NCBI GenBank assembly: GCA_030649165.1
Contig: JAUSGG010000242.1
Coordinates: forward strand, 1-34,619
From: Armatimonadota bacterium
Lineage (GTDB): Bacteria; Armatimonadota; UBA5829; JAUSEB01
Length of the DNA stretch: 34,619 nucleotides
Direction: 5' to 3'
The translations under genes were made by a program, and so were the position numbers. Positions 16,332-24,769 of this stretch are shown in pieces. Position 1 is the first letter of the stretch. Each line of letters begins with the position of its first letter. The notes under the pieces were generated by a model, which saw only the letters and a program-made list of their open reading frames with translations, was not told the DNA's origin and did not search any database.

Positions 16332-17111
16332 TTATCCGGGTTGTCGCGGCGGTTGATCGTCACTGATGCGGCGCTTGCTATGTTTGAGCCTGAAGCTGTC
16401 GCCGTTCATCTCGAGGATGTGAACGTGGTGAGTAAGGCGATCAAGCAGCGCGCCGGTGAGCCGCTCGGAAGCGAAGACGGTGGTCCACTCGTCGAAGGGC
16501 AGGTTGCTGGTCACGATCGTCGAGCCGCGTTCGTAGCGCTGGCTGAAGACCTCGAACAGCAACTCGGCGCCAGTCGGTGACAGCGGAACGTAGCCGAGTT
16601 CGTCGACGATCAAAAGCTTGTAACCGGCGAGCTGGTGTTGCAGGCGCAGCAGCCGCTTTTCATCGCGCGCTTCGTGCAGTTCGTGGACGAGGGCCGCGGC
16701 GGTGGTGAAGCCGACCGCGAGGCCCTTCTGGCAAGCGGCCAGTCCGAGCCCCAGCGCGATGTGAGTCTTGCCAGTGCCGCTGTTGCCGACCGCGATAATG
16801 TTCTCGCGGCGGGCGACGTACTCCGAGCGGGCCAGCTCCAGCACCAGGGTCTTGTTGAGCGATGGAATGGCGGTGAAGTCGAAGCTGTCGAGGCTCTTGA
16901 CCGCGGGGAACCTGGCCTCTTTTATCCGGCGCTCTACGGTGCGCCGTTCCCGGTCGATCATCTCCAACTCGGCCAGGCGTAGCAGGTAGCGCGGATGGTC
17001 GACTCCTTCGGCGGCGCACTGGCGGGCGAGCTTGTCGTACTCACGCAGGAAAGTCGGCAGCCTAAGCGCCTTCAAGTGATGGGCGAGCAGCACCTGCGGG
17101 GTGTCACTCAT
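16332..17111 (-). CDS. istB: IS21 transposition helper ATPase IstB
   Basis: A 259-residue AAA+ ATPase of full length. It shows an N-terminal LLAHHLKALRLPTFLREYD segment, Walker A GNSGTGKT at about 109-116, a Walker B stretch LLIVDELGYVPLS, and the sensor region TSNLPFDEW / RLTGALLDRLTHH. IstB loads the IstA transposase on target DNA and regulates strand transfer. Its start overlaps the istA stop by four bases (ATGA), the normal coupling in this family. With istA truncated, it has no transposase partner in this copy. Confidence 0.93.
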   Translation of the reverse strand: MSDTPQVLLAHHLKALRLPTFLREYDKLARQCAAEGVDHPRYLLRLAELEMIDRERRTVERRIKEARFPAVKSLDSFDFTAIPSLNKTLVLELARSEYVARRENIIAVGNSGTGKTHIALGLGLAACQKGLAVGFTTAAALVHELHEARDEKRLLRLQHQLAGYKLLIVDELGYVPLSPTGAELLFEVFSQRYERGSTIVTSNLPFDEWTTVFASERLTGALLDRLTHHVHILEMNGDSFRLKHSKRRISDDQPPRQPG

Positions 17112-17310
17112 GACGATGCTCCTCCCGCCAGCAGGCTCAGGTAGGCCGAGGGCGAAGTGGTCGTTACCGTGGCCTGCGGCAGGTAGGGATAGATCTTAAG
17201 GTCCAGCCGCGGCGGGCGGCGCTCGATCCGGCACAGCACCAGATGCTTGACCGCATCGAAGCCGATCACGCCACGATCGAGTGCCGCTCTGACCCCGGCC
17301 AGTATTTCGA
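17108..17310 (-). pseudogene. istA: C-terminal remnant of IS21 transposase IstA
   Basis: The last about 65 residues of IstA are present: LAGVRAALDRGVIGFDAVKH, LCRIERRPPRLDLKIYPYLP and the terminal SPSAYLSLLAGG. The DDE catalytic domain is missing. Upstream of about 17310 the frame continues into unrelated sequence of the gene at 17266-17454. The remnant at 22262-22612 shares the same IstA/IstB motifs, so the two are copies of related elements. Confidence 0.8.
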
Positions 17311-17454
17311 GGCTAAAGCACCCCTCGGCTTGACGGTGATGACATCTTTCATCGCGGGCGCTGACTTTTCTTCGAGCGGGAATGGGCTTGGAGGAACGGT
17401 GATCTTCCCATCGCTCTTTTTGACGAACATTCCCTCCGCGTGTTTGGTATCCAT
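17266..17454 (-). CDS. 5' fragment of an unidentified gene joined to the IS21 remnant
   Basis: An ATG at 17454 with AAGGAG about 9 bases upstream begins MDTKHAEGMFVKKSDGKIT, then a Pro-rich segment and KDVITVKPRGA. It then enters IS21 sequence out of frame with istA. The good ribosome-binding site says this was a real gene start. About the first 45 residues are genuine. I do not recognise the family. Confidence 0.4.
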   Translation of the reverse strand: MDTKHAEGMFVKKSDGKITVPPSPFPLEEKSAPAMKDVITVKPRGALASKYWPGSERHSIVA

Positions 17455-18048
17455 GTCCAACTGCTCCTTTTCGGGCCGGGGCTTCGGCGCCCTTGGCCGT
17501 CCCCAACACTCATTGCTCTGTCGCGGCGGTGAGGGAAGTGAAAGGAACTGGCCTATCAACGAGAACTGAATGCGAACCATACTTAACCCGCACCGAAACT
17601 TCATTTGTCCGCTTCGATGCCGCCTTGGCAGCCGTCGGGCTGCTACTATTGCCGCGCCAATCTTCTCTGAATAGACCGCGGCGTGCTACGCCCGCGCGGC
17701 TGCGTCGATCAGGAACTTGCGATGAACAAATTGCATCGGAGTGACGAAGTTTGATGCCTTGCAGAACGCTGACGGAGTCGTCTCAGAGTTCGAACACTGC
17801 ATTCCGCAACCCGGTCCCTTGATTCATAGACTTTCGACGATCCGGCTTCCGTCTTGCGAAAATTTGCGAAACACGGCAAAGATGCCTTCAGTTGTCAAAG
17901 CTTTAGGCGGGGTGACGCGGTGGGAGAATCAAATCGGCATCATCGCCAAAACAAAATTATTCTTCGGCGAAAAGCTGCTGAATCGCGCGAAGCAGCTCCA
18001 GCATACTTGAATGCGGTCAGGGAAATCGTCGTTACTCCAGGACGCGCC
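17455..18048. other. spacer between the IS21 scar and the hypermodification-type gene
   Basis: About 590 bases hold no convincing gene. Two overlapping frames run through 17741-18048, one of them in phase with the gene starting at 18049, but neither has a recognisable pattern or ribosome-binding site. The base composition becomes less GC-rich towards the right. The promoter of the next gene probably lies here; I could not fix it. Confidence 0.4.
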
Positions 18049-19068
18049 ATGCAGGCCACTGAGGTCTTCGAGACGTACTGGCGATTCGCGGCTCTACGGC
18101 AGGACCTTTTTATACGTCGAGTTGCGGGCAGCCTTCCTCCGTGGACAGGCGATCCCGTCTTAGCGTGTTATCGGTTTACCAACGTCTACCGTGCCACCGA
18201 CCGCGTCAGCCAGTATCTGATTCGAAATGTCCTCTATCGAGGCGAGCAATCCGGAGAGGAGATTTTTTTCCGAGCTCTCCTCTTTAAGTTCTTCAACCGG
18301 ATCGACACGTGGGAGCGGCTCGAGGCGAAAACGGGCCCAATAACTTGGAAGGCATTTGACTTCGACCGGTACGCGAGGGCTCTCGACGCAGTTGCCGAAC
18401 ATCAACGCCCGATCTACTCCGCTGCGTACATCATGCCCTCGCCCGCGTTCGGTTACCGCCGCAAACACCTCAACCATTTGCGGCTACTCCAACACATGAT
18501 GCTCGACGGTGCACCCTTCCGTGTAGAGAGCGCCCGCTCCCTCCGGGAGGTCTTTGAGATTCTTCGCTCCTATCCGTCGCTAGGAAACTTTCTCGCTTTT
18601 CAATTCGCAATAGATCTGAACTACAGCGGTATGCTCGATTTCTCTGAAATGGAGTTTGTGGTAGCAGGTCCAGGCGCGCGCAGCGGAATCCGTAAGTGTT
18701 TCGCTGATACTGGGGGCTTCGATGACGCTGACGTGATTCGGGCCGTCACCGAAATGGCTGATCGCGAATTTGACCGTCTCGGTTTGTCCTTTCATAGGTT
18801 GTGGGGACGACCACTTCAACTTGTCGACTGCCAAAGTCTTTTCTGCGAAGTCGATAAATACGCACGCGTTGTTCATCCCGCGTCCAGTGGCACGGCGGGA
18901 CGAACTAGGATAAAGCAACGCTTCACACCCAAGCCAAAGCCCGTACCGCAGTGGTATCCCCCGAAGTGGGGCCTGAAGGTCCCGGAAAACAATACAAGTC
19001 AGCAAACCGATGACGCAGACGCCACACAAGAGCAAGGAGCGCTTGCGTTCAGTGACTCGGAGGAATGA
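18049..19068 (+). CDS. putative DNA base hypermodification protein (5-hmdU DNA kinase helical domain / aG-PT-PPlase-like)
   Basis: About 339 residues from the ATG at 18049. The domain opens VFETYWRFAALRQDLFIRR, then PPWTGDPVLACYRFTNVYRA, TDRVSQYLIRNVLYRG, FRALLFKFFNRIDTWERLE and, late, LGNFLAFQFAIDLNY with GPGARSGI, a helix-hairpin-helix-like glycosylase-fold motif. I recognise this as the helical domain family of phage 5-hydroxymethyl-dU DNA kinases and alpha-glutamyl/putrescinyl-thymine pyrophosphorylases. In phages, these act on hydroxymethyl-uracil in DNA to build hypermodified thymines. A low-complexity C-terminal tail (about 295-339) is Lys/Pro- then acid-rich. The frame is open further upstream to 17854, but that part looks random. 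It converges on and overlaps the mazG-like gene by 20 bases. The exact reaction is unknown. Confidence 0.75.
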   Translation: MQATEVFETYWRFAALRQDLFIRRVAGSLPPWTGDPVLACYRFTNVYRATDRVSQYLIRNVLYRGEQSGEEIFFRALLFKFFNRIDTWERLEAKTGPITWKAFDFDRYARALDAVAEHQRPIYSAAYIMPSPAFGYRRKHLNHLRLLQHMMLDGAPFRVESARSLREVFEILRSYPSLGNFLAFQFAIDLNYSGMLDFSEMEFVVAGPGARSGIRKCFADTGGFDDADVIRAVTEMADREFDRLGLSFHRLWGRPLQLVDCQSLFCEVDKYARVVHPASSGTAGRTRIKQRFTPKPKPVPQWYPPKWGLKVPENNTSQQTDDADATQEQGALAFSDSEE

Positions 19069-19978
19069 ACTCTATAGTACCTGCTATTAGATCTCCTCGC
19101 ACCCTTCCGCCATCGCGGTCTCGAAGTTGTCTCCAAACTGCAAAACCCCGCAGGATCGCGTCATTCCATTCCTTGGTGGTCCGATCCTTTACCTCGAGCC
19201 GTGAAGTCATTTGCTTGATATGCCGCAATAGCCGCGAATCTACGGCGCCAACCCCTGCGAGATCAGCGTGATCTGCCGCGTACATATAGGCAGCGAACGC
19301 GATCCCCTCCTCAACCACACGAGCACGTCCGCCGTCTTCAACTTCAGCTAGCTCCTTAGGATCGCGGTTAACCAGGATCTTCTTGTTCCGCAGGAGCTTC
19401 CTCAACACCGGAGACCAGCCAAGGCAGGCTGCGAACGCAAGATGTACAGCGTCGTGAAATCGATATCCGTCATCATCATATGCGTTGTCTGTGAGCGGGT
19501 CGCCGGTAGTCTCAATCGAGTCGCCGTTTAGACGATCCACCATCACCACTTTTCGGGCACCGTCAATTGAGCGATACTCGAAAGAGTATTCAAAACGCTT
19601 CGGCAACCGTTGGTTCTCGAGTTGTTGCTCGTCGTAAAGATGCCGCGCACCCTCGGGAGGGGACCATCTGTCCTTGACCTTACTAAGGTTCTGCTCTGCG
19701 ATATCGTCAAGACTTAGTTTGAACTTGGTTGCAACGTTGGCCACATACCACAGAATGTCACCGAGCTCTTCCTTCACTTCATCGCCGAATTTTCGGTGCG
19801 TGGCACCGTCTCGGAGCAGCTTTTTGTATTCGCCCAGCAACGCGCCTACTTCGCCGACAAGGCCGAGAAGCGGAATCACGTCGCTGTTCTGAGCAATTTG
19901 TGAAACCTGAGTCGAATCGTGGGCCTTTGCATTCTGATCAGTCTCGCCCGCACGTCGCTGATATTCTTCAAGATTCAT
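19049..19978 (-). CDS. MazG-type nucleotide pyrophosphohydrolase with C-terminal extension (309 aa)
   Basis: The N-terminal domain, about residues 33-105, carries the MazG metal-binding pattern: GLVGEVGALLGEYKK, then KEELGDILWYVANVATKF and LSLDDIAEQNLSKVKDRW. These glutamates and aspartate would bind Mg for hydrolysis of an NTP to the NMP and pyrophosphate. The C-terminal domain, about 150-300 (GYRFHDAVHLAFAACLGWSP, EEGIAFAAYMYAADHADL), is a helical extension seen in a subset of MazG proteins and may be a second nucleotide-binding fold. It is the last gene of the operon; its AGGAG overlaps the TS-like stop codon, so the two are coupled. A job in removing a competing or modified dNTP is inference from the neighbours. 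Confidence 0.83.
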   Translation of the reverse strand: MNLEEYQRRAGETDQNAKAHDSTQVSQIAQNSDVIPLLGLVGEVGALLGEYKKLLRDGATHRKFGDEVKEELGDILWYVANVATKFKLSLDDIAEQNLSKVKDRWSPPEGARHLYDEQQLENQRLPKRFEYSFEYRSIDGARKVVMVDRLNGDSIETTGDPLTDNAYDDDGYRFHDAVHLAFAACLGWSPVLRKLLRNKKILVNRDPKELAEVEDGGRARVVEEGIAFAAYMYAADHADLAGVGAVDSRLLRHIKQMTSRLEVKDRTTKEWNDAILRGFAVWRQLRDRDGGRVRGDLIAGTIEFIPPSH

Positions 19979-19990
19979 TGGTCATTGCTC

Positions 19991-20746
19991 CTATTCGGCA
20001 AGTGCGCGGTCGATCGCACTAGAGGCCGGCGCCAGTTTTGTCTTCGAGATCTCGCACACGGCTATCCCGGTCAAGCATGTCAAGCGTACCAGCCGCAGGC
20101 TCATTTCATGGGCAATAAACTGTCCAAGTCGGCAAAGGCCCAAATAGTTTCCGTATGCGCGTTCAACCATGTACTGAGACGCATAGAATGCATTCACCGA
20201 AAGGCCTTCATCGGAAGGTGCAAACGTAACGTGCTGCAAACAAGGAAAGCCAAGCTGTGCTGCCGCGGAATGATCTCGGTTTGGATCAAACACAGCGACT
20301 TGAAGAACACTTCGACGCACGCCCTCGCGTCCGAGATAAGTTCCGATACCAAAGTCTAATTGATTCTCAGCGCCCTTCGGGCCACCGGAGATCATCCTTT
20401 CAAAGTACAATCCATGGGAGTTCTTGCGCGTCGCCTTCTGTATCCTTGGCAGGATATTCAGGTAACGCTTGTACAGAAGCTCACGTGGAGCCGCGGGATT
20501 CCAGAGAGATCGTGGAAAAATCGTGTTTGCGACCGTTTCGACACTCTGCTTACCCTCTTTTACGAGGAGATCTTCGAGAGCAGTACGAATTCCATTTTCC
20601 TCCTCAACGTTGCCGTATTCATCGAAGCCTGTAATAGCCACTATCAACGGCACCGTCTCTGAGTGGCCTCGCGCACTCGCCAAGCGCAACCCCCTGCCCC
20701 AGGCAATCGAGAGATTGCGCTCCTCCACGTAATGTTCACTCGGCAT
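19991..20746 (-). CDS. thymidylate-synthase-like protein with altered active site (251 aa)
   Basis: The C-terminal half aligns without gaps to the E. coli thymidylate synthase core. FPCLQHVTF holds the likely nucleophile Cys169 (TS Cys146). LSVNAFYASQYMVERAYGNYL parallels the TS segment with RSxD and N. By position, Asn200 equals the pyrimidine-recognising Asn177, and Ser190 equals Ser167. Ala189 replaces the phosphate-binding Arg166 and Tyr192 replaces Asp169. The TS His207/Tyr209 sugar contacts are not evident. RR at 144-145 may equal Arg126/127. The Cys and Asn suggest C5 chemistry on a uracil-type base, but on an unusual substrate. The start overlaps the metallopeptidase stop by 11 bases and has GGAGG upstream. 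The alignment was made by eye. Confidence 0.72.
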   Translation of the reverse strand: MPSEHYVEERNLSIAWGRGLRLASARGHSETVPLIVAITGFDEYGNVEEENGIRTALEDLLVKEGKQSVETVANTIFPRSLWNPAAPRELLYKRYLNILPRIQKATRKNSHGLYFERMISGGPKGAENQLDFGIGTYLGREGVRRSVLQVAVFDPNRDHSAAAQLGFPCLQHVTFAPSDEGLSVNAFYASQYMVERAYGNYLGLCRLGQFIAHEMSLRLVRLTCLTGIAVCEISKTKLAPASSAIDRALAE

Positions 20747-21587
20747 CTGCCGGTTCCTCCAGGTAGCGATATCGTGCCAGGCCGGTGAACCTCGGTCGGC
20801 TAACGCGTATCTCGATCGAGCGCGAGTTGTTCAAGGCCACACTTCCACTGCCAGAAATCGTCGCAGCTATGTGAACCCTAGGTTTTGTCTTGCGAATCGC
20901 GCACGCGCCCGTGAATCCTGCGCTCGGCGGAATCACCGCGACGTCCCCGATCTCAAGCTCAATAGGTCGTTCACCCCAGTGATCATCAACAACAAGAAGG
21001 TCTTGGTCGATCTGAAAACCGGCTAGGTCAGATCTGAGTTGCGTCAATTTCTGTTTTAGAAGTCCGGTTGCGACACTGGACAGCACGCATCTCAGGGTAC
21101 ACTCCATATGCCCGATCAACGTTGTGTATCCCACGCCAAAATTCTGAGCCACTACGTACACTTCATTCGGTCGCGGTGATTTCAGCGACCATCCACGACG
21201 GTCGAACGCCGCTTCCACGGCTATCTTTGGCATGAGAAGGCCGGCGGCGAACCGATGCGCCAAGAATTCGTCTGAACTCCATGCCCCAGGATCGTCATCG
21301 AACAGCTGATCTAGGCATGTTCCGTGGCCAAAGACGTGATGCCCAATCTCGTGGGCGCAGCTATATCTACGGCGTCCTGCCGGACGTTCCGTACTCAAGA
21401 GAATTACCGGCGAAGGTTCTCGAGCGTAAATTGCCTCTAAACTTGACAATGCGATCAGACGAACCGAGAGCCCGATTCGGTCGGCCAATTCAAACGGACA
21501 TACGGCATCGGATGGGCCGATGCCGTATTTAGCGCGCAGCCGCGATGCTTCTGCCGCAGCGCGCGTGGCAAGTTCTCGGACGTTCAC
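20736..21587 (-). CDS. ImmA/IrrE-family zinc metallopeptidase (283 aa)
   Basis: The zinc motif HEIGH lies at 79-83 within SCAHEIGHHVFGHG. The third ligand is likely Glu107 in DEFLAHRFAAGLLMP, the family signature. An N-terminal helical segment (residues 1-40) precedes it, and a C-terminal half of about 130 residues, beta-rich, has no motif I recognise and may be a sensor or ligand-binding domain. ImmA-type proteases inactivate an XRE repressor encoded beside them, as in ICEBs1, and IrrE-type ones respond to DNA damage. The GTG start overlaps the XRE stop (GTGA at 21584-21587), so protease and repressor are made together. Confidence 0.9.
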   Translation of the reverse strand: MNVRELATRAAAEASRLRAKYGIGPSDAVCPFELADRIGLSVRLIALSSLEAIYAREPSPVILLSTERPAGRRRYSCAHEIGHHVFGHGTCLDQLFDDDPGAWSSDEFLAHRFAAGLLMPKIAVEAAFDRRGWSLKSPRPNEVYVVAQNFGVGYTTLIGHMECTLRCVLSSVATGLLKQKLTQLRSDLAGFQIDQDLLVVDDHWGERPIELEIGDVAVIPPSAGFTGACAIRKTKPRVHIAATISGSGSVALNNSRSIEIRVSRPRFTGLARYRYLEEPADAE

Positions 21588-21913
21588 CGCTTCGGCGCCT
21601 TCGACTTCCGCATCGTCGTCAGTAAACGCACGATCCTGTCGAGGTCCGCAGGCTTGAGTTTGGCTAGCTCGCGCGCGGCGAGCCGCACCCGATCGTCGCC
21701 GATTCCGTCATTCTGATCCAAACCTGAAAGCCAAGATATGGACACATCGTAAATCCGGGCGAACTCAGGCATTTCCTCGGCAGTCACGCGCCTTCGCCCG
21801 GCCTCAATTTCTGAGATCGTCGGCCGATGCACATCAATCATCTTCGCGACTTGAGCCTGAGACAAGCCAGCCTGTTCACGTGCGAATCGGAGTCGGTCGC
21901 TCAGCCCACTCAT
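21584..21913 (-). CDS. XRE-family transcriptional regulator (109 aa)
   Basis: A helix-turn-helix of the Cro/cI type spans about residues 6-60: RLRFAREQAGLSQAQVAKMI, then HRPTISEIEAGRRRVTAEEM. A short helical tail (ARELAKLKPADLDRIVRLL) probably dimerises. Its start overlaps the carrier-protein stop (ATGA, 21910-21913), so it is the second gene of the operon. The inverted repeat over the promoter upstream (22219-22235) is a good candidate operator, giving autorepression. The metallopeptidase next door is the expected de-repressor. Confidence 0.92.
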   Translation of the reverse strand: MSGLSDRLRFAREQAGLSQAQVAKMIDVHRPTISEIEAGRRRVTAEEMPEFARIYDVSISWLSGLDQNDGIGDDRVRLAARELAKLKPADLDRIVRLLTTMRKSKAPKR

Positions 21914-22200
21914 TTCGACGAACCCTTCGATCCAAGCATCTTGCAGATCCGTTCGCCGATCTGTTTCAGATTGAGCGCGTGCTTTCCGTCCTCTGACGTA
22001 AAAATCGAATCAGTATCGAATTTGCATCCCAGCTTCTGCTCAATGGCGACCGTAACCTCCACGCCGCTAAGTGAATCGAAGCCGTCGAGGTCGCCCAATG
22101 GTCTCGACTCTTGATTGAGTTCTGTCCACTGGCGACCACTCGTGGTCTGAATGTCGCGCAGCACTGCGACAATCACAGATTCGATTTCCCTTGGTTGCAT
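21910..22200 (-). CDS. acyl carrier protein (96 aa)
   Basis: A short acidic carrier protein. The phosphopantetheine attachment motif is DGFDSLSGVEVT with the modified serine at position 43, followed by the helix VEVTVAIEQKLGCKF. It differs from a housekeeping AcpP in its longer loop and basic C-terminus (KMLGSKGSSK). The ATG at 22200 has GGAGG seven bases upstream. It is the first gene of the operon. No ketosynthase or fatty-acid genes are nearby, so it probably carries an acyl or aminoacyl group for a dedicated step, perhaps onto a nucleotide or base; that is inference. It would need a host phosphopantetheinyl transferase. Confidence 0.85.
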   Translation of the reverse strand: MQPREIESVIVAVLRDIQTTSGRQWTELNQESRPLGDLDGFDSLSGVEVTVAIEQKLGCKFDTDSIFTSEDGKHALNLKQIGERICKMLGSKGSSK

Positions 22201-22218
22201 AGCCTCGCCTCCCGCGTT

Positions 22219-22250
22219 GGTAAGATATTCTTACCACACGTAAGAAACAA
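22219..22250 (-). promoter_or_regulatory. operon promoter with inverted-repeat operator
   Basis: GGTAAGATATTCTTACC at 22219-22235 has perfect 7-base arms around TAT. A further GTAAGA half-site is at 22240-22245. On -, TTGTTT (22245-22250) and TATCTT (22222-22227) are 17 bases apart and can serve as -35 and -10 for the gene starting at 22200. The operator would cover the -10 box, which fits repression by the operon's own XRE protein. Confidence 0.55.
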
Positions 22251-22261
22251 TGTCTATGGTG

Positions 22262-22612
22262 CGGAGATTACTGCGTCGTCTGCGCTTCAGATCAGCCCAC
22301 CGACCGGGAACTGCCTGCAGAGTTCGCGACGCTGCGCAGGCTGCTCGAAGCGCGCATGGGCAAGTCAGGCAACGGGAGTTCGTCCAAGTCTTGCGCTTGC
22401 TGGAGGTGTTCCGCCCCGGCGATGTACTGGCCAGGATCATAGCGGCACTGTATTGAGGCGCGATCGGCTTCGACGCGTCGGTGAAGAGTCTCGATAGCTT
22501 CGAGTTCGCCGCCATTCCCTCGCTCAACACGACTCTGGCGCGGGGGCTGGCCCGCGCCGAGTACATTGCTCGGCGGGAAAACATTATCGCGGTCGGCAAC
22601 AGCGCCCCGGGA
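22262..22612 (+). mobile_element. degenerate IS21 remnant: end of istA joined to an inner piece of istB
   Basis: The first part reads an IstA C-terminal region in two frames (PTDRELPAEFATLRRLLEAR, then after a shift REFVQVLRLLEVFRPGDVLA and IGFDA). It jumps directly to an internal IstB stretch (VKSLDSFEFAAIPSLN, then EYIARRENIIAVGNS), which closely matches the intact IstB of this window. The sequence ends at the position of Walker A. A deletion has thus removed the istA end and istB start. Orientation is opposite to the copy at 16161-17310. Confidence 0.75.
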
Positions 22613-23173: not shown

Positions 23174-24769
23174 TTGACTTTGAACGAAGCCCAAACCCGT
23201 GCCTTCCAAATCGACCCACAGTTGCGTGCTGCTGACTGGAAACTCAAGGACCGCACCCAGGTCGGACTGGAAGTTCCGGTTGATGGCTATGACGCGGAGC
23301 CATGGAACGGCGTCACCGACTATTGCCTGTACGACCCAAGCGGCAACGTGCTTGCCATCGTGGAAGCCAAGCGATGCTCCCGCCACGCGCGCGACGCTGA
23401 CGAACAACTCCGGCACTACGTCACCGAGATCGCCAAGAAGCAGCCGTTTGCTCCCTTTGGGTTCATGGCCAATGGCCATGATATTTGGTTCTGGGAAGTC
23501 GGCCTCGCTAATCCGCGCCTCGTCGCCGGATTTTTCGCGCCCGCCGACCTAGAGCGGCTGAAGTTCCTACTTCGGAACCGACGCCCGCTTGAAGCGACCC
23601 CCATCAACAGCTCCATAGTCGACCGCGCCTACCAGCACGAGGCCATTCGCCGCCTCGCCGAGGCCTTCGCCGCCAACAAGCGCCGCGCGCTGCTCGTTAT
23701 GGCCACGGGGACGGGCAAAACGCGGGTGGCCATGGCCTTGATCGACGTCTTTCTCCGATCCAATCAGGCGCAAAACGTTCTCTTCCTCGCGGACCGTGAC
23801 GCCCTTGTCGATCAGACCCTGACCGATGGCTTCAAAGCCCACTTGCCTCACGAGCCTCGCGACCGGATCTACACGCATCAGATCGACAAAACGAAACGCC
23901 TCTTTGTTGCCACCGAGCAAACGCTGGCGCTCTGCTACGCCAAGTTCAGCCCAGGTTTCTTCGACCTCATCATCTTCGACGAAGCCCACCGCTCGCTCTT
24001 CAAACGGTTCACCGAAGTCATCGAGTACTTCGATGCCCGCATGATCGGTTTGACTGCTACTCCTGCCAACTTCATCGACCGCGACACCTTCAGGGTCTTC
24101 GGGTGCGATGCCAATGTGCCGACCTTCCTCTACGATTATCCGCAGGCTGTGAAAGAAGGCTTCCTCGTCGATTTCAGCCTGTACCAGGCGCACACCAGTT
24201 TCCAGCGCAAAGGCATCAAGGGCGTGGATCTCAGCGAGGAGGACCGCAACGCTCTCGCCGAGCAGGGCATCGACCCCGACAGCCTCGACTACGCCGGCAC
24301 GGCGATCGAAGTCGACGTCAGCAACAGAGACACCCTCCGCAAGCAATGGGAGGAAGTCATGGAGACCTGCCTCAAGGATCAGTCTGGCCAGTTGCCAGGC
24401 AAAACGATCGTCTTCGCGATGACCAAGAAGCACGCTCACCGGATAGCCGAGGTCTTCGAGGAGATGTACCCGCAGCATGTAGGCGTCGCCCAGGTCATCA
24501 TGTCCACGACCGAGAGGGTGCGAGACGGCAGCTACGGCGACGGTCTCATAACCAAGTTTAAAAAGAACAACCTACCACGCATCGCCATCTCCGTGGACAT
24601 GCTCGACACCGGCATCGACCTACCCGAGACCGTAAATCTTGTGTTCATGAAGCGAGTTGTCAGTAGGCACACCATGGCAGGGCTTACCGAACCGAAGTGC
24701 AACAATTTTGGGGACGCTTTGAGAACTGAGCGCGCCGATCTGGCGAGCGGAACAGATTCGTCTGCTTGA
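23174..24769 (+). pseudogene. hsdR: type I restriction endonuclease subunit HsdR, C-terminally truncated
   Basis: The N-terminal nuclease domain has the PD-(D/E)xK pattern: Asp49 in GVTDYCLYD and VEAKR with Glu64/Lys66. The motor follows with Walker A ATGTGKT at 177-183, DEAH at 269-272, GLTATP at about 293-298, and motif V-like VDMLDTGIDLPE. Similarity ends at NLVFMKRV near 24655, where motif VI (QMIGRGTR) should come. About 35 unrelated residues follow. Full-length HsdR would run several hundred residues longer. No hsdM or hsdS is in the window, so no working restriction enzyme is possible here. The likely start is a TTG at 23174. An ATG at 23127 in another frame looks like the original start, separated by a one-base shift. 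Confidence 0.85.

Follow-up and report, generated by a model that had tools for sequence, protein, structure and literature searches.

CapH/CapP pairs, which control cyclic oligonucleotide-based anti-phage signaling systems (CBASS), are known to be derepressed upon DNA damage or infection. The phage pathway for thymidine hypermodification combines a hydroxymethylase, a 5-hydroxymethyldeoxyuridine (5-hmdU) kinase and the amino-acid:DNA transferase ADDT. Experimentally validated DefensePredictor anti-phage systems of E. coli are reported to include thymidylate synthase (TS) and 5-hmdU kinase (5hmdUk) domains (PMC13092281). Here we describe a six-gene cassette within positions 18049-22250 of a 34,619-nucleotide stretch of DNA from an Armatimonadota bacterium (contig JAUSGG010000242.1, hereafter the window). 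It encodes a carrier protein, an XRE repressor, an ImmA protease, a TS-like protein, MazG and a convergent HMUDK_hel protein, and does not contain the phage hypermodification set. Our tentative reading is an inducible nucleotide/DNA-base conflict system that is mobile and most likely directed against phages or plasmids.

The five - strand genes begin with the acyl-carrier-like protein (21910-22200, 96 amino acids, GFDSL motif; PF00550 PP-binding, 9e-5). It is followed by the XRE-family repressor (21584-21913, 109 amino acids; Pfam HTH_3, 2e-16; top PADLOC match CapH, 8e-13), a CapP-like ImmA/IrrE metalloprotease with an HEXXH motif (20736-21587; PF06114 Peptidase_M78, 1e-10; PADLOC CapP, 1e-13), a divergent TS-fold protein (TS-like; 19991-20746, 251 amino acids; TIGR03283, 4e-8) and a protein joining a MazG pyrophosphohydrolase domain to a MazG_C domain (19049-19978; PF18722, 2e-57, and PF03819, 9e-6). 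HMUDK_hel, formerly aGPT-Pplase1, lies on the + strand (18049-19068); its in-frame open stretch reaches back to 17854 and the family alignment begins at 18049. The open reading frame (ORF) list places all six genes where the original prediction had them, with overlaps of 4, 4 and 11 bases and one 12-base gap among the - strand genes and a 20-base overlap with the convergent gene. Five of the six are clearly assigned by Pfam, NCBIfam and PADLOC, the sixth being a weak thymidylate synthase. PADLOC profiles gave regulator-type matches (CapP, CapH, RmrA and similar) and one chance-level match, with no effector match and no listed system.

To investigate the distribution of the cassette, 84,980 species genomes were scanned with the convergent HMUDK_hel protein and plasmid records were added. 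The genome scan returned 23 loci. At 22 of them the match to the window protein extends over most of the latter, with approximately 60-71% identity. When the six window proteins were mapped onto these loci and the plasmid records, three groups emerged, with some intermediates: subtype I, subtype II and a Thoeris-like architecture A that is compared below. Subtype I consists of carrier, XRE, ImmA, TS-like, MazG-MazG_C and HMUDK_hel. Complete copies are present in the window, in metagenome-assembled genomes of Gammaproteobacteria (L018, L019), in a genome of L018's phylum group (L072), on conjugative plasmids of Rhizobium and Sinorhizobium (L029, L039) and of cyanobacteria (L032, L043), and on Streptomyces plasmids (L030, L038, L040); four partial copies (L014, L025, L027, L074) lie mostly at contig ends. 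Gene order is shuffled while the set is retained, HMUDK_hel being convergent at some loci and in line at others and MazG divergent in Streptomyces. Intermediates (L002, L013, L020, L042) have a papain-like C1 peptidase, a phosphopantetheinyl transferase (PPTase) or both. Subtype II (L045-L051, L073) is arranged as carrier, XRE, ImmA/chagasin, C1 peptidase and TS-like, convergent with a uracil-DNA glycosylase (UDG) and MazG, the latter not being found at L047. The UDG gene, convergent to TS-like, occupies the exact slot of HMUDK_hel. At L073 (7971-10568) about 1.3 kb of inserted sequence interrupts it. In the intermediate from Rhizobium ruizarguesonis pRlX4 (L042:3663-4524) it is the TS-like gene that is broken, lying in two frames; carrier, XRE, ImmA, C1 peptidase, dCTP deaminase and HMUDK_hel are still present there.

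Loci were also sought independently of HMUDK_hel, by plasmid and genome searches with TS-like only. All 11 loci examined from these searches (L045-L051, L062, L072-L074) have either HMUDK_hel (2) or UDG (9) nearby and none has both. One of them, L062, combines TS-like with a radical SAM/SPASM protein and UDG; XRE, ImmA and carrier were not detected at this locus. Across nine subtype I loci the pairwise distances of five genes correlate with r between 0.68 and 0.94 (Mantel test on five gene pairs, p<=0.0002; shared ancestry of close pairs contributes to the correlation), as would be seen if the genes travel as one unit. Occurrence is sparse. Of 291 genomes in the window's phylum, 4 carry HMUDK_hel and 4 have strong TS-like matches; of 398 genomes in L018's phylum, 4 have such matches, the centre included. 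Mobile contexts are frequent and include plasmids, integrases (L025, L074), TrbI (L072) and the inverted IS21 remnants around the window copy. Neighbors of defence type (ABC-3C, AAA/SIR2 genes, Shedu, a caspase-like protein, type I restriction-modification) occur at some loci, and dCTP deaminase genes adjoin others. Judged by its sequences, the cassette is a real, co-inherited, mobile unit that recurs in unrelated phyla, often on plasmids. The recurring neighborhood suspected in the original prediction thus exists in unrelated genomes and plasmids and is not confined to this contig.

The convergent protein covers positions 1-280 of the 281-position PF18723 HMUDK_hel profile (E = 1e-107), its only match above cut-off. 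It had been described as a 5-hmdU kinase helical protein; the kinase part of that description falls, as Pfam finds no kinase domain in HMUDK_hel. A kinase role was rejected for lack of a P-loop, the kinase PF18748 being a separate gene in Yuavirus. HMUDK_hel is present in 488 phage records, many from known hypermodifying groups. M6-like phages have it beside Nmad5 and the P-loop 5-hmdU kinase, with genes for TS and ADDT in the vicinity, and in Kuttervirus it adjoins a gene for a MazG-like protein. The kinase (PF18748) and ADDT (PF18724) were not found in the cassette or elsewhere in the genome, in searches run without a positive control. The AlphaFold2 (AF2) model of HMUDK_hel (pLDDT 82.6) leans weakly towards DNA glycosylases, the five top Foldseek matches (E 0.25-1.9) being helix-hairpin-helix DNA glycosylases of the AlkA/OGG type and the phage glycinyltransferase PUGT; hhalign gave no signal between HMUDK_hel and ADDT. 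The presence of UDG in the same slot of subtype II suggests that the slot acts on a base in DNA, and this swap is the best clue to its role. On two sphingomonad plasmids (L028, L033) HMUDK_hel has another context, immediately after a DnaQ-like exonuclease and ahead of a DnaE polymerase. On an Acinetobacter plasmid (L035) it is annotated as two adjoining ORFs, suggesting a frameshift or split gene.

TS-like has no Pfam match and its NCBIfam match to TIGR03283 (methanogen TS) falls under the curated cut-off of that family. Its AF2 model (pLDDT 74.6) nevertheless retrieved only TS-fold structures, which account for all 32 PDB matches at E<=0.001. Flavin/dCMP hydroxylase entries of phage HY126 ranked best, followed by TS and MilA, and a profile search placed MilA first, weakly. 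Searches with phmmer of single TS-like, HMUDK_hel and UDG proteins against the sequences of solved structures gave no match. Structure prediction thus bears out the TS fold proposed for 19991-20746 and gave no result that contradicts the proposal for 18049-19068. The catalytic Cys169 and the pyrimidine-binding Asn200 are invariant in 19 aligned TS-like sequences, as are several further positions. By equivalence to E. coli TS assigned by eye, the phosphate-binding Arg (R166) is Ala in the window branch, the Streptomyces and subtype II branches retain Arg there ('RS' or 'RN/RH'), and the folate Asp (D169) is lost in all aligned sequences. Since the model matches TS-fold structures only, with hydroxylases, TS and MilA ranking best, TS-like likely carries out C5 chemistry on a pyrimidine nucleotide. 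Classical folate hydroxymethylation is not assured, given the flavin-dependent dCMP hydroxylases among the closest folds and the lost folate Asp. The idea that TS-like is simply the TS of its host was rejected, since contig C102 of the genome has a separate PF00303 gene. A phage origin of the whole set was likewise rejected, a tblastn search with TS-like against 50,697 phage records having given no match. Proteins of about 450-800 amino acids in the order of the window genome (G230-G244, for example L064:874-2286) give weak matches to the TS-like profile (E 1e-8 to 1e-13), two of them within a single frame in G238 and G239, and possibly represent an unusual large TS-family protein.

The carrier assignment of the original prediction is upheld by the phosphopantetheine Ser, invariant in all 23 carriers inspected from both subtypes, and by AcpS/Sfp-type PPTase genes adjoining eight loci (L002, L013, L020, L029, L039, L042, L047, L051), though not the window. 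Because the Ser is kept and PPTases lie beside these loci, the holo form of the carrier is very likely needed. The predicted MazG is supported by Pfam matches to both MazG and MazG_C, with the acidic metal-binding motifs GExG...E.KK and EELGD kept in most copies.

A perfect 6-3-6 palindrome, GTAAGATATTCTTAC (22220-22234), lies approximately 20-34 bases upstream of the carrier start and represents a candidate XRE operator. The palindrome is the sole match in the window within one mismatch (0.04 expected in shuffles). The pattern GTAAGA-N3-TCTTAC, or a form with one central base, is found in the 50 or so bases preceding the carrier start at nine of nine subtype I loci outside the Streptomyces group, with 0-2 mismatches and spanning several phyla, and L072, found later, has a perfect copy. 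Sequences of the same geometry are present in Streptomyces copies (TGTCGTA-N3-TACGACA; L030, L038) and in subtype II copies (TGTCGGA-N3-TCCGACA; L045, L046, L049). We infer that this palindrome serves XRE as its operator and that the five window genes for carrier, XRE, ImmA, TS-like and MazG are repressed together. The metalloprotease motif of ImmA (HEIGH/HELGH) is kept across copies and its family profile matches CapP/IrrE and chagasin structures, CapP being the best PDB match. ImmA ends in a C-terminal beta region, which in subtype II is a fused chagasin-type (I42) cysteine-protease inhibitor, with the papain-like protease following; I42 matches occur in subtype II only. A chagasin domain in the window ImmA was rejected for want of a Pfam match, its fold being suggested by the family profile only, and the inhibitor-protease pair would be lacking or reduced in the window version. 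Together, the XRE protein, the HEXXH protease and the conserved candidate operator support the control by repressor and protease that had been predicted.

On the best reading, the system makes or processes a pyrimidine nucleotide altered at C5 and targets the altered base within DNA. XRE would hold the carrier-XRE-ImmA-TS-MazG operon silent until a trigger, by analogy with CapH/CapP DNA damage or infection, leads ImmA to inactivate it. The Cys of the TS-fold enzyme would then activate C5/C6 of a pyrimidine deoxynucleotide, so that C5 is altered, with the phosphopantetheine arm of the holo-carrier giving or taking a group in the reaction and MazG clearing competing or unused dNTPs. HMUDK_hel or UDG would finally act on the altered base in DNA, by excision or by attachment or transfer, to the harm of replicating foreign DNA. 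At sequence level this reading is supported by co-inheritance of the unit, the palindrome, the TS fold, the intact carrier Ser, MazG-MazG_C and the HMUDK_hel-or-UDG slot. We favor defence because of the defence-type neighbors and because TS and 5-hmdU kinase domains are reported from experimentally validated E. coli systems (PMC13092281). Several points weigh against it. We infer both the chemistry and the anti-phage activity of the module, and the glycosylase-like fold of HMUDK_hel depends on weak Foldseek matches (best E 0.25). The Ala at the phosphate-binding Arg and the loss of the folate Asp make the substrate of TS-like uncertain, and no loading enzyme for the carrier is conserved or present in the cassette. 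A palindrome search of the window found no operator copy upstream of HMUDK_hel, indicating that this gene may be separately controlled. A bolder version of the chemistry, in which the Cys-activated C5 reacts with a phosphopantetheine-tethered group instead of folate and HMUDK_hel or UDG then acts, as a weapon, on the new C5-substituted pyrimidine deoxynucleotide in DNA, seems unlikely.

The original prediction named self-marking beside defence. Under self-marking, the DNA of the host or of the element itself would receive a hypermodified pyrimidine from the cassette. The M6-like islands with their TS, HMUDK_hel, kinase and ADDT, and the MazG-like gene beside HMUDK_hel in Kuttervirus, are what this idea would draw on, yet the cassette lacks kinase, ADDT and any conserved cleaving partner. 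The UDG that takes the place of HMUDK_hel in subtype II speaks for removing or attacking a base in DNA no less than for decorating it, and we consider self-marking unlikely. The same swap fits an attack by HMUDK_hel/UDG on phage DNA containing 5-hydroxymethyluracil-like bases, with TS-like and MazG purging the host pool of that nucleotide. The abundance of HMUDK_hel among hypermodifying phages and the absence of TS-like from phages agree with such a role, but carrier and PPTase would be left unexplained and degradation by TS-like lacks direct support, making it quite unlikely.

The resemblance to MilA of mildiomycin synthesis, one of the closest folds, and the radical SAM/SPASM partners at L025 and L062 would suit a pathway to a small nucleoside natural product or signaling nucleotide, in which TS-fold C5 chemistry and a carrier act on a target other than DNA. 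Since HMUDK_hel or UDG, both taken to act on DNA, is always there, in most cases along with MazG, and no transporters or tailoring enzymes are conserved, this is very unlikely. Carrier, TS, MazG and XRE families are each common, so ordinary metabolic genes could in principle be neighbors by chance; the probability of this is close to nil given the set in unrelated phyla, its correlated divergence, the shared operator and the separate TS-family gene of the genome. Recurrence of the set led us to reject chance clustering. The conflict system outlined above is the reading we retain.

The window copy is flanked on the left by an IS21-family IstB with a partial IstA (16332-17509, - strand; ORFs assigned from sequence) and on the right by an IS21-family remnant (22425-22604, + strand) that is inverted relative to the left copy, its identity to the reverse strand at 16778-16903 and 17252-17304 being 83-85%. 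Adjoining the cassette, 23174-24769 (+ strand) encodes an HsdR-like protein of type I restriction of which only the N-terminal part is present, apparently truncated at 531 amino acids vs roughly 1000 in its relatives.

A literature search found no paper on the module; a prior prediction is possible, Iyer 2013 and Burroughs 2015 being likely in silico precedents outside the search. To our knowledge, no nucleotide-centered defence system uses a phosphopantetheine carrier. The carrier and the HMUDK_hel/UDG exchange would be the new elements here, in a fast-growing field. The exchange offers a direct clue to the role of the widespread, poorly understood HMUDK_hel family, and the cassette, compact and with a recognizable candidate operator, is found in tractable rhizobia and streptomycetes on plasmids, some of them conjugative, making it directly testable.

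Architecture A, represented by about 15 HMUDK_hel loci (L003-L009, L011, L015, L021, L022 and others), combines HMUDK_hel and usually MazG_C with TIR-SLOG (LD_cluster2), one or two ThsB-like TIR proteins per locus and Nmad2, often inside type I restriction-modification operons (HsdM, HsdS, a Schlafen-like protein, HsdR). It shares with the cassette MazG_C and HMUDK_hel, the latter approximately 60-69% identical to its window counterpart, but relies on TIR/SLOG sensing and Nmad2 and has no carrier, XRE or ImmA. At two loci of this TIR/Nmad2 type, L012:6233-7414 (PF00303 match) and L023:6353-7360 (BLAST clustering), a thymidylate synthase family protein replaces MazG-MazG_C beside HMUDK_hel. The DefensePredictor systems likewise place TS and 5hmdUk domains in active anti-phage defence; their operon composition is suggested by figure abbreviations only, and the text consulted mentions no carrier protein, ImmA or UDG swap (PMC13092281). 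AfhB (the phage HY126 dCMP hydroxylase) and MilA (a CMP hydroxymethylase), the closest solved folds to TS-like, retain the same Cys and Asn at less than 15% identity, whereas TS-like has lost the folate Asp and is partnered by a carrier protein. Phage hypermodification islands (M6/Yuavirus, ViI/Kuttervirus) also bring together a TS-family enzyme, HMUDK_hel and a nearby MazG-like gene. The cassette, in contrast, is bacterial and plasmid-borne, lacks the P-loop kinase and ADDT, has a TS-like subfamily not found in phages and adds XRE/ImmA and a carrier. With the CapH/CapP pair of CBASS, the best PADLOC match for both regulators, it shares an XRE repressor and an ImmA-type protease, but here the pair would control nucleotide/base genes instead of a cGAS-like enzyme, and the ImmA of subtype II bears a chagasin domain.

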